Assembly: GCF_003268635.1 (NCBI RefSeq)
Contig: NZ_CP029639.1
Location: forward strand, 2,801,501 to 2,865,500
DNA length: 64,000 nucleotides
DNA from: Paenibacillus sp. DCT19
Lineage (GTDB): Bacteria; Bacillota; Bacilli; Paenibacillales; Paenibacillaceae
Reading direction: 5' to 3'
The notes below the pieces were generated by a model. The model searched no databases. It saw nothing but the letters and a program-made list of their open reading frames with translations, and had not been told where the DNA came from. Shown piece by piece: positions 1-58,726 of the stretch. The position numbers were made by a program, and so were the translations under genes. Each line of letters opens with the position of its first letter. Position 1 is the stretch's first letter.

Positions 1-1496
1 AAAATTCAACTGCCCTTGCAAACGGCAAGTCTTGTTCTTGGCTTTATGGTATGGGTGATTCTCTCGTCACTCATGCCTTTCATCAAAGAAGATATCGCAC
101 TTTCATCTTCACAGCTGGCTTGGGCGACTGCCATTCCGGTATTAATCGGTTCGATTGCTCGTATTCCGATTGGGTACTGGACGAACCGCTACGGGCACGT
201 AACATTTTCATGATCAGCTTTGTGTTATTGCTTGCTCCGGTATGGTGGGTTAGTCGTGCAACATCATTCAGTGATCTCGTTATTGGCGGATTTTTCCTCG
301 GAATCGGTGGCGCTGTATTCTCTGTCGGTGTAACATCACTGCCGAAGTATTATCCCAAAGAACGTCATGGTTTTGTAAACGGGATATATGGAATTGGTAA
401 CCTTGGAACGGCGTTATCTGCATTCGGAGCACCGTTGATTGCCGATCGTATGGGATGGTCTACAACGGTATTGCTATATAGTATTTTGTTACTCGGGATG
501 GCTGCACTGAATTTTGTTCTCGGGGACAAGAAGGAAACACGTGTTAATGTTCCGCTGATGCAGCAGTTAAAGGCCGTATCGCGAAACAATAAACTGTGGC
601 TGCTATGTTTGTTCTATTTTTTAACGTTTGGTTCATTCGTTGCATTTACAGTATATCTGCCCAACTTCTTGGTTACTAACTTCCAGATGGACAAAGTAGA
701 TGCAGGTATTCGTACCGCAGGCTTCATTCTGGTTGCAACGATTATGCGACCTGTGGGTGGCTGGCTTGGTGACAAGTTTAATCCGTTCAAAATATTAATG
801 TTTGTGTTCGGCGGATTAACTATTGCTGCGATCGTATTATCGTTTGCACCTTCATTCTACATTTATACAGTTGGGTGTCTGACTGTCGCGCTCTGCGCGG
901 GTACAGGTAACGGTACAATTTTCAAATTAGTGCCAATGTATTTCGTCAAACAAGCAGGTATCGCTAACGGGATGATCTCGGCTATGGGTGGTTTGGGCGG
1001 TTTCTTCCCTCCATTAATGCTGACGCTGCTGTACAGTATGACAGGTCATTACGCGATTGGATTCATGGCGTTATCCCAGATTGCACTGGTAAGTCTCGTG
1101 CTCGTCATCTGGATGTTCTATCAAGAGAAACTTCAATTGTCTTCTAGCATTCTGGAGAATACCATTGAAGCGATCCTGGTGACAGATACGAACAGTGTTA
1201 TTCGTTCTGTGAACCCAGCCTTTACGGCGGTTACAGGTTACACAGCTGAAGAAGCGGTGGGACAGAAGCCAAGCATGCTGAAATCAGGCAAGCAGGATAA
1301 GAAGTTCTATGATCAGTTGTGGCAGGAACTGCGTGAAAAAGGATACTGGCAGGGCGAGATCTGGAACCGTAAGAAAAACGGTGAGGTTTATCAGGAATGG
1401 CTTAGTATTACAGCAATCCGTAATGAAGCTGGAGAAGTCAAATATTACGCGGGTATGTTCAGTGACATGAGTAAACCCGATCTAACGATTGCCTAA
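1..1496 (+). CDS. narK: NarK-type nitrate/nitrite MFS transporter with C-terminal PAS domain (5' partial, frameshifted)
   Basis: Membrane transporter of the NNP branch of the major facilitator superfamily, which moves nitrate and nitrite. The frame is open from base 1, so only a few N-terminal codons lie outside. The N-terminal part shows the family's conserved start (GFMVWVILSSLMPFIKED) and the glycine-rich helix GNGTIFKLVPMYFV typical of the nitrate signature. After the last membrane segment (about base 1120) a PAS domain of about 110 residues follows (SSILENTIEAILVTDTN, then NPAFTAVTGYTAEEAVG). Most NarK proteins end after helix 12, so this is a fusion. The frame breaks at the GGG of 193-195; adding one G restores NRYGARN and a 498-codon frame. 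YwiC and Crp/Fnr genes next door match the Bacillus narK-fnr-ywiC order. The family call is firm; the ligand sensed by the PAS domain is unknown. Confidence 0.9.
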   Translation, partial: NSTALANGKSCSWLYGMGDSLVTHAFHQRRYRTFIFTAGLGDCHSGINRFDCSYSDWVLDEPLRARNIFMISFVLLLAPVWWVSRATSFSDLVIGGFFLGIGGAVFSVGVTSLPKYYPKERHGFVNGIYGIGNLGTALSAFGAPLIADRMGWSTTVLLYSILLLGMAALNFVLGDKKETRVNVPLMQQLKAVSRNNKLWLLCLFYFLTFGSFVAFTVYLPNFLVTNFQMDKVDAGIRTAGFILVATIMRPVGGWLGDKFNPFKILMFVFGGLTIAAIVLSFAPSFYIYTVGCLTVALCAGTGNGTIFKLVPMYFVKQAGIANGMISAMGGLGGFFPPLMLTLLYSMTGHYAIGFMALSQIALVSLVLVIWMFYQEKLQLSSSILENTIEAILVTDTNSVIRSVNPAFTAVTGYTAEEAVGQKPSMLKSGKQDKKFYDQLWQELREKGYWQGEIWNRKKNGEVYQEWLSITAIRNEAGEVKYYAGMFSDMSKPDLTIA

Positions 1497-1547
1497 GCGA
1501 TTCATGTAAACAGAACAGTTATTGAAAAAGTGATCCAACATACAGCA

Positions 1548-1588
1548 AGAGACCTTAACTTGATTTACAGTAGTTAAGGTCTCTTTTT
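1548..1588 (+). terminator. Rho-independent terminator after narK
   Basis: A 13-bp stem (AGAGACCTTAACT pairing with AGTTAAGGTCTCT) with an 11-base loop is followed by T residues. It lies about 50 bases after the narK stop. Confidence 0.85.
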
Positions 1589-1671
1589 GCACAAGCGATA
1601 GTTCAATACACAGAGGATGTGATTAACATTCCTGATGAATGTGGCTCAACGCTGAGCTGTCATTGTGAATA

Positions 1672-1811
1672 ACAGAAAGAACAAGTTAGAAGCAGGGAGC
1701 AGGCTGTAAGAAACAAATTAGTAGCAAATAGCAAGCAGCAAGTAGTAAGAAACAAGAAGTAGCAAGCCACAAACAGCAAGAAGCAGCAAGATGCAGGAAG
1801 CAGTCTTGCTG
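1672..1811. repeat. Degenerate AGCAAG/AGTAGCAAG low-complexity repeat
   Basis: Short imperfect repeats of the type AGCAAGNAGCA, AGTAAGAAACA and AGCAGCAAG fill the space between the convergent narK and Crp genes. No open frame of note crosses it. The end at 1784-1811 forms a hairpin (CAGCAAGA with TCTTGCTG) that could be a weak terminator for the minus-strand Crp gene. Its function is otherwise unclear. Confidence 0.6.
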
Positions 1812-1817
1812 TTATGC

Positions 1818-56560: not shown

Positions 56561-56589
56561 GGATTGTAACTGTTCAATCAGGCAATTCC
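56561..56589 (+). promoter_or_regulatory. RAT 5, orphan antiterminator target
   Basis: GGATTGTAACTG, loop, then CAGGCAATTCC, 29 nt. No licT gene and no clear RAT-overlapping terminator follow; only about 80 bases separate it from RAT 6. It is probably the remnant leader of a lost licT gene. Confidence 0.75.
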
Positions 56590-56670
56590 GACCAACCTTG
56601 GTCAGTGAAGATTGATCGCAACTTACTTTAGTTATTAAGATAACTAAATACCAATGTGTACAGCCTTACA

Positions 56671-56696
56671 GGGTTGCAACCGTTAAGGGCAAAACC
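56671..56696 (+). promoter_or_regulatory. RAT 6, short variant before PTS 3
   Basis: GGGTTGCAACC, a five-base loop, then GGGCAAAACC. Nearly identical to RAT 4, so the same LicT probably reads both. Confidence 0.82.
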
Positions 56697-56767
56697 TGAA
56701 TTGCTGAATAACACGACTTATTTCCGGATGATCCGGTACGTTGTGTATGTTCAGTAGTTCAGGTTTT
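56691..56767 (+). terminator. RAT-linked terminator before PTS 3
   Basis: AAAACCTGAA pairs with TTCAGGTTTT at 56758-56767, and T-rich sequence follows. The stem shares AAAACC with RAT 6. Confidence 0.8.
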
Positions 56768-56814
56768 CTTTGTTTCAAAGGCATGGATGAGACACACTTA
56801 GAGGGGGAAATACA

Positions 56815-58726
56815 ATGAGTAACTACGATCAATTGGCCAAGGATATTCTGTCACGTGTAGGTGGTCCTGAGAATGTTAACAGCGTGTTCCATTGCGTAAC
56901 AAGATTGCGGTTTAAACTGAAAAATGAAAGCGTAGCCAAAACGGAAGAACTTAAAAATCTACCAGGTGTTATTACCGTAATGCAGAGTGGTGGACAGTAT
57001 CAAGTAGTTATCGGTAATGAAGTGCCGGATGTATATAAAGCCGTAGTAAAAGCAGGAAATTTGTCTGCTGAAGGTCAGGTCGATGAGAATGATGCAGACT
57101 CTGGTCCTAAAGGAAATTTGTTTAACCGTTTTGTAGATATGATCTCAGGGGTATTCACTCCAGTGCTCGGCTTGCTAGCAGCGACTGGGATGATCAAAGG
57201 TTTCACAGCTATGTTCGTAGCGTTGGATGGATTAATAATACTGAAGGTACGTATGCATTGCTGAATGCAGTGGGAGATTGCTTATTTTACTTCTTCCCGA
57301 TCTTCCTTGGATACACAGCAATTAAAAAATTTGGTGGAAGCCCATTCCTAGGTATGGCGATTGGAGCATCGCTGGTATATCCGACGCTTGCGGGAATTCG
57401 CGCTGGAGAACCGTTGTATACATTGTTTGCAGGAACCTTATTTGAATCACCGATTCGAATTGAGTTTCTAGGTATACCGGTTATCTTGATGGATTATGCT
57501 TCATCCGTTATTCCGATCATCATTGCAACATTCTTTGCAGTCAAAATTGAAAGATTCTTTAAAAAGATTATGCCTAAAGTAGTCAGCAATTTTTTGGTTC
57601 CTTTCTGCACATTGCTAGTTATCGTACCACTTACGTTCTTGGTCATTGGCCCGGTTGCTACATGGGCAGGTCAACTGTTGGGTGCATTCACATCTTCGAT
57701 TTACGGCTTGAGTCCACTGCTTACAGGTATCGTGATTGGTGGTTTATGGCAAGTGTTCGTTTTGTTCGGACTTCACTGGGGACTTGTTCCATTAGTATTC
57801 GTTAACCTGGCAACTCTTGGATATGACTCGATTCTGGCCTTGTCTTTCGCAGCATCATTTGCTCAAACAGGAGCCGTGCTTGCAGTAACGCTCAAAACGA
57901 AAAACGCGAAGTATAAAACGCTGGGCGCACCGGCAGTGATATCAGGTATTTTTGGGTAACTGAACCAGCCATTTATGGTATCTCGCTCCCATTGAAAAAA
58001 CCATTCATTATGAGCTGTATAGCTGCAGCAATTGGTGGCGGTATTCTCGGCTTTGTTGGAACAAAAGGATACATTATCGGCGGACTTGGTATTTTCGGAT
58101 TCCCAAGCTATATCAACCCTGAGGGAGGAATGGATTCTGTATTCTTCTGGACGGTTGCCGCTACAATTATCGCATTTATGCTAGGCTTCATTCTGACTTA
58201 TGTTGTAGGCTTCAAAGAGCCAGCAGAAAAAGTGGCTGCTCCAGCACCAGTACTTGATCCAAACCCAAACAGCAGATATGAAATCATGAGCCCAATGGCT
58301 GGTGAAATCGTTCAACTGAAAGAAATCAATGATGTAACGTTTGCAGGAGAGCACATGGGTAAAGGGATTGCAATTCGTCCAACGAGTGGTAGAGTGGTGT
58401 CTCCAATTACAGGTACAGTACAAACGGTGTATCGGACTAAACATGCGATTGGTCTTGTAACTGATGATGGTGTAGAGATGCTCATCCATATCGGACAGGA
58501 TACAGTACAACTGAAAGGGCAACATTTCACAGCACATGTGAAGGATGGAGATCGCGTTAATGTAGGTGATCTGATTATGGAATTCGATCTGCAAGCGATT
58601 AAGGATGCAGGATATGAGATTGTGACACCTATTATCATCACAAACACTTCAAGCTATCTGGATGTTGTAGGAACCAAAGAAGCATCTGTTCAAGAAAAAG
58701 ATAAATTGATCACTGTACTAAATTAA
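56815..58726 (+). CDS. PTS beta-glucoside transporter IIBCA 3 (two frameshifts)
   Basis: A 637-residue IIBCA permease after repair, close to PTS 2. The IIB Cys is in [10 protein letters not shown]; the IIA His in [16 protein letters not shown]. Breaks are at the GG of 57225-57226 (repair gives [17 protein letters not shown], matching PTS 2) and the GGG of 57954-57956 (repair gives [13 protein letters not shown]). Each needs one added G. It is read from RAT 6 and lies in one unit with the following glycosidase. ATG 56815 follows AGAGGGGG. Confidence 0.92.

Follow-up and report, generated by a model that had tools for sequence, protein, structure and literature searches.

Bacterial genomes assembled from long reads alone retain residual insertions and deletions in homopolymers, which lead to frameshifts throughout the genome (Polypolish, PMC8812927). 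One-sided single-base homopolymer deletions have been described in PacBio consensus, where alignment of Illumina reads to a consensus of ~3.2 Mb revealed 561 of them (PMC4888979). Illumina correction of PacBio-only Streptomyces assemblies consisted mostly of single bases added in homopolymers, with stretches of G and C named as a cause of the errors (PMC6923854). In nanopore data, the deletions described with Kastor are most frequent after runs of 4-5 (PMC12007338), and errors persisting after polishing favor A/T runs (PMC11232133). The present work concerns fifteen one-base frame breaks in 13 genes of a 64,000-base stretch (the window) of a Paenibacillus genome, G000: bases 2801501-2865500 of a single contig of 6,667,063 bases. 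Judged from comparison of assemblies, the breaks are almost certainly errors of the deposited sequence, in which short runs, mainly of G/C, appear to be undercounted by one base.

The G000 assembly is complete, with an estimated completeness of 99.98%. Three close relatives, G013, G061 and the complete genome G062 (6.53 Mb), were used for comparison. At aligned sites G000 diverges by ~8.8% from each of them, while they diverge by 3.6-5.4% from one another, which places G000 outside the three. Because of this outgroup position it is the reading frame, not the run alone, that shows which side is broken. Open reading frames (ORFs) of the relatives, at least 90 amino acids (aa) long, were mapped by blastn onto the window and its flanks, and the frame offset was followed along every gene mapped over at least 80% of its length. 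At each site, the length of the window was further compared with each of the three relatives over ~80 base pairs (bp).

An earlier note, made from the letters of the window, had claimed fifteen single-base breaks in 13 genes, each repaired by addition of one base. All fifteen were recovered independently against the genes of G013, G061 and G062, and mapping confirmed the 13 genes. The alignment to homologues in related genomes that the note had proposed as a check finds the frame open in all three relatives at all fifteen sites, with the net loss always in the window, which is at every site exactly one base shorter than all three. The family lengths given in the note (472 residues for gnd, 487 for the GH1 enzyme and 637 for the phosphotransferase system, PTS, protein) are those of the relatives. 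Fourteen of its coordinates lie within ~5 bp of the aligned break; the remaining one, 24472 in a TetR-type regulator gene, was wrong, as the best gap falls at 24439-24443 in all three alignments, in a T run 30 bp upstream. The breaks observed are the following:

192-193, + strand: gene of a NarK-like MFS transporter with C-terminal PAS domain; 503 aa in relatives, open in all three
19517-19518, + strand: gene of ORF 18542-19561; 346-347 aa in relatives, no NCBIfam match at 1e-20
21459-21461, + strand: FtsX-like permease gene (weak NCBIfam match); fragments 21006-21512 and 21533-23341, 778 aa in relatives
24439-24443, + strand: TetR-type regulator gene; fragments 24159-24521 and 24470-24817
26038-26044, + strand: MFS transporter gene, broken near its end; first fragment 24831-26084, 441 aa in relatives
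26782-26786, + strand: ankyrin-repeat protein gene; fragments 26294-26788 and 26812-27366, 357 aa in relatives
38097-38098, + strand: gnd, 6-phosphogluconate dehydrogenase; fragments 37156-38211 and 38118-38573, 472 aa in relatives
44337-44338, + strand: GH1 6-phospho-beta-glucosidase gene; fragments 43330-44343 and 44340-44792, 487 aa in relatives
45370-45373, + strand: 5'-nucleotidase (NT5C-type) gene; first fragment 44915-45388, 188 aa in relatives
47809-47810, + strand: alpha-L-rhamnosidase gene; fragments 46602-47825 and 47822-49312, 903-908 aa in relatives
49862-49865 and 50180-50182, + strand: two breaks in an acyltransferase-3 gene (49488-50580); 364-386 aa in relatives
51594-51599, + strand: licT, BglG-family antiterminator gene; fragments 51447-51701 and 51725-52357
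57224-57225 and 57954-57956, + strand: two breaks in a beta-glucoside PTS IIABC gene; window ORFs 56815-57264, 57258-57959 and 57992-58726 on the + strand are its fragments, 637 aa in relatives

With the TetR break moved to its T run, a G run of at least 3 contains or adjoins ten of the sites, and one is at CCC; of the other four, two are in A/T runs (24439-24443 and 38097) and two have only GG (47810 and 57225). When genes of the relatives serve as reference, 34, 29 and 24 frame breaks are found in G000, compared with 0-6 between the relatives themselves over six ordered pairs (same procedure), which excludes chance. In the reverse direction, taking the ORFs of G000 as reference yields 22, 20 and 13 breaks in the relatives, as expected if G000 ORFs run on past their own breaks. 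Three further differences in the window, each seen with two or three references, were excluded from gene breaks: 36413 and 49479 closely precede the start codons of ORFs 36431-37096 and 49488-49877, whereas 11675 lies within ORFs called on opposite strands in different relatives. Calls obtained with a single reference (15188 and 16844) were excluded as well.

The signature of the breaks was determined in a wider sample of 644 kb, consisting of the window with its surroundings (344 kb) and a region near the ribosomal-protein cluster (300 kb), and compared with G062; 221 kb and 276 kb (497 kb together) could be aligned. Run lengths were anchored by their flanks: only pure runs with conserved flanks were counted, and sites with a nearby substitution were dropped. 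G000 is one base short in 4 of 3293 G/C runs of 3, 19 of 624 runs of 4, 29 of 123 runs of 5 and 9 of 21 runs of at least 6. The rate of shortening thus rises with run length from 0.1% through 3% to 24% for G/C runs of 3, 4 and 5, compared with 0.7% (5/709) for A/T runs of 5. The change is one-sided, 57 of the 768 G/C runs of at least 4 being shortened and a single one lengthened. As a control, G/C runs of 4-6 were followed among the relatives, where 0-1 of 125-168 are shortened, versus 8/117, 11/145 and 7/87 in G000. For A/T runs of 4-6 the figures are 4/535, 5/685 and 4/413 in G000 versus 0-4 of 498-667 in the relatives, so G000 does not stand out.

Two details of the earlier note did not hold. 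It had described a bias toward G; at equal length, with the two regions pooled, G and C runs are equally affected, both at length 4 (G 9/290, C 10/334; Fisher p 1.0) and at length 5 (G 10/49, C 19/74; Fisher p 0.53). The apparent bias stems from composition, since the window strand has more G runs: around the window mostly G runs of the + strand are affected and in the 5.5-5.8 Mb region mostly C runs, a contrast of composition. An artefact specific to strand or replication direction was considered and rejected, because the rates per run of equal length do not differ between G and C. Nor is four G residues read as three the main signature, as in the wider sample shortening from five to four is commoner both in number (29 vs 19) and in rate (24% vs 3%).

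Breaks are not confined to the window. Relative to G062, 45 of 195 ORFs are broken in the region around the window and 40 of 248 in the ribosomal-protein region, a few of the compared ORFs being spurious ones over ribosomal RNA (rRNA). These comparisons yield 108 entries at 107 distinct positions, one position being counted twice in overlapping ORFs; 94 entries (93 distinct) are net minus one, and 7 (4 of them net minus one) fall in the block of rRNA and transfer RNA (tRNA) genes at 5734500-5741000. Over the 429 kb of ORFs that were mapped, net-minus-one breaks occur about once per 4.6 kb. Of the 94, 69 have a G/C run of at least 3 within the 10 surrounding bases, as compared with 10.3% of random positions; the same holds for 2 of the 14 net-plus-one breaks. 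The reverse comparison, G000 ORFs on G062, gives 38 and 42 breaks in the two regions, again as expected if G000 ORFs run on past their own breaks. Since the error occurs in each of the two chromosome regions sampled, of which one contains the window, the fifteen sites represent a local sample of what extrapolates to roughly a thousand genome-wide.

This density bears on natural decay, by which some of the 13 genes would be real pseudogenes in an ageing region of carbohydrate use. Judged by family names, most of the 13 do look dispensable (transport, sugar use, regulators), and the breaks at 24439-24443 and 38097 lie in A/T runs, where undercalls are rare. However, gnd is a core pathway gene, all 13 genes map over at least 80% of their length, every break amounts to a net one base, and the wider sample is similarly dense in breaks, with rplB, rRNA and a tRNA gene among those affected. 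We regard decay as very improbable.

Traces of selection were sought by comparing coding with non-coding sequence. Among G/C runs of at least 4, 39 of 594 are short in coding and 18 of 174 in non-coding sequence, a difference within the range of chance (Fisher p 0.10); for runs of 5 the counts are 22/87 and 7/36 (p 0.64). In the same alignments, shortening of A/T runs of at least 3 affects 6 of 8776 in coding sequence as compared with 32 of 1875 in non-coding sequence (p 5e-19). Losses from A/T runs are purged from genes, which is the look of purifying selection, and the G/C events are without that mark.

Indispensable genes are affected too. The gene rplB (ribosomal protein L2, an identity that rests on the NCBIfam match of the relative) meets a stop after 36 codons and continues in another frame. 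Four copies of the 16S rRNA gene were found in G000; the copy at 5739307-5740858 is one base short in a G/C run in which the other three agree, and among the 16 variable columns of 1553 this loss is the sole gap. Relative to G062, the 23S copy adjoining this deviant 16S lacks four bases, each a net one-base gap at a CCCC run; its score is 2934 bits as compared with 2962. One tRNA gene of the rRNA/tRNA cluster is one base shorter than in G062 and its score drops to 50.5 from 57.7. The ribosomal-protein stretch as a whole is short in 2 of 34 runs of 4 and in 3 of 6 longer runs, as elsewhere. The damage to rplB and to the 16S, 23S and tRNA genes is a strong argument against real mutation.

The rRNA and tRNA genes also speak against programmed frameshifting or transcriptional slippage on G runs, by which the cell would read the broken genes through. 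Known slippage sites are short homopolymers, and so are the sites described here. Yet the 13 genes lie in one frame in all three relatives at all fifteen sites, and rRNA and tRNA, which are not translated, are also affected; the probability of this explanation is negligible.

The reading of the earlier note, undercall and not decay, is therefore supported by specificity for base and run length, one-sidedness and similar rates in coding and non-coding sequence, and also by the damage to rplB and to the 16S, 23S and tRNA genes. In the mechanism proposed, the sequencing or consensus step would drop one base from short G/C runs, with a probability climbing steeply with run length (~0.1% at 3, 3% at 4 and 24% at 5), and a drop within a run inside a gene would break its frame. 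Such an error would strike coding and non-coding DNA, G and C runs, and genes for proteins, rRNA and tRNA. Independence from gene content and strand is indeed what the counts display. Accurate reads would presumably show the longer runs.

A recent, true mismatch-repair mutator offers another source of one-base losses, real deletions in G/C runs having accumulated faster than selection could purge them. It draws on the state of the repair genes themselves: mutL (G000:C1:2890070-2892018) is split at G000:C1:2891260, a MutS2-like match (1982710) is in a shorter frame (595 vs 799 aa) and a third MutS-like match (5030212) is split, while mutS itself is unbroken. Comparable rates of affected G/C runs inside and outside genes would fit it as well. 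On the other hand, the affected genes include rplB, a tRNA gene and one copy each of 16S and 23S. A repair defect is expected to affect both directions and both base types. The change is one-sided (57 shortened, 1 lengthened), and A/T runs fare no worse than in the relatives, with 5 of 2661 coding A/T runs of at least 4 shortened. Private substitutions of G000 show a ratio of codon positions (1+2)/3 of 0.356, versus 0.359-0.401 in the relatives, which looks like normal selection, although the test is weak. Their transition/transversion ratio is 1.72, versus 1.94-2.44 in the relatives. Neither ratio is higher than in the relatives, but on the long branch of G000 the trace of a very recent mutator would be diluted in both. 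We consider a mutator very unlikely, and a shade less likely still that the deletions are real in a living mutL-inactive strain, which would be losing single bases almost only from G/C runs of 4-6, including those in rplB and one rRNA operon. The most plausible reading of the mutL split is a further case of the artefact, and the shortened MutS2-like and split MutS-like genes are probably the same.

Several observations weigh against undercalling. Two of the fifteen breaks lie in A/T runs and two at GG only; G/C runs of at least 3 cover 11 of the 15 breaks in the window and, in the wider set, 69 of 94. Of the fifteen, one or two could be natural. As G000 lies outside the relatives, individual runs could have lengthened in the ancestor of the latter, and run lengths are here read from assembled sequences. 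Another tRNA gene, likewise one base short relative to G062, does not score lower (65.0 vs 64.2). Examination of rpoB and the S12 gene revealed no frame break in either; in rpoB the comparable G/C runs of at least 4 number just two, both of length 4. Finally, a looser count of private one-base differences is not mainly G/C: G000 has 16 gains and 38 losses, of which 15 are of A, 11 of G, 10 of T and 2 of C, and the relatives have 16, 7 and 3 differences in total. In this count, gaps placed near substitutions scatter the calls over A and T, and the longer branch of G000 inflates it. Such counting over the whole region was too loose and was for that reason replaced by frame tracking and flank-anchored run lengths.

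Set beside the described cases, the phenomenon is an ordinary assembly artefact. Its density is close to that of the PacBio consensus, in a report whose cited portion leaves the base of the runs unstated (PMC4888979). Per genome of 8-9 Mb, the Streptomyces assemblies carried 70, 295 and 335 differences (PMC6923854), below the number extrapolated for G000. The long-read assemblies treated by Polypolish carried hundreds of residual errors per genome, with no G/C-only bias mentioned in the portion cited (PMC8812927). Kastor (PMC12007338) and Homopolish (PMC8011154) share our idea of detection, in which the frame is open in relatives and the draft has a deletion in a run. In the main example of Kastor, A/T runs are favored about two to one over G/C (PMC12007338), whereas in G000 they are almost spared. 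A literature search on such errors in Paenibacillus yielded two papers, which appear unrelated. Compared with those nanopore profiles, an unpolished PacBio-type consensus is the better match for the G/C-only pattern. We infer such a long-read source with about an even chance of being right; the verdict is unaffected by it.

Other elements of the window merit description. Its first gene has its closest locus in Paenibacillus sp. Root52 (98% protein identity), followed by three loci at 97%, including P. tundrae DS1314, among the best 80 of 557 loci. The fusion of the NarK-like MFS transporter with the C-terminal PAS domain (window 51-1496) is also present in G062, and 12 of the 80 loci listed match residues 1-481 of the NarK-like protein. 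A non-coding repeat of ~164 bases with terminal inverted repeats occupies window 6671-6834 and folds into a long hairpin (-54 kcal/mol for 6670-6838). It has 25 matches in G000, 17 of them at least 150 bases long, and matches in at least 7 other Paenibacillus genomes; at its window locus it is absent in G013 and present in G061 and G062. No Rfam match was found for it up to E = 5. The repeat looks like a mobile element of the miniature inverted repeat transposable element (MITE) type. At 54550-56455, between two PTS genes, lies a group II intron that encodes its reverse transcriptase/maturase (ORF 55111-56385); the intron is absent at the same site in all three relatives.

The 13 genes are probably intact in the living cell. 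The completeness score of G000 (99.98%) does not reveal the broken frames (45/195 and 40/248 ORFs), and its gene calls, pseudogene counts and claims of lost function, such as those concerning mutL, the PTS or licT, would be wrong if not verified by accurate reads. The split mutL and MutS-like genes in particular set a trap for claims of a mutator strain.

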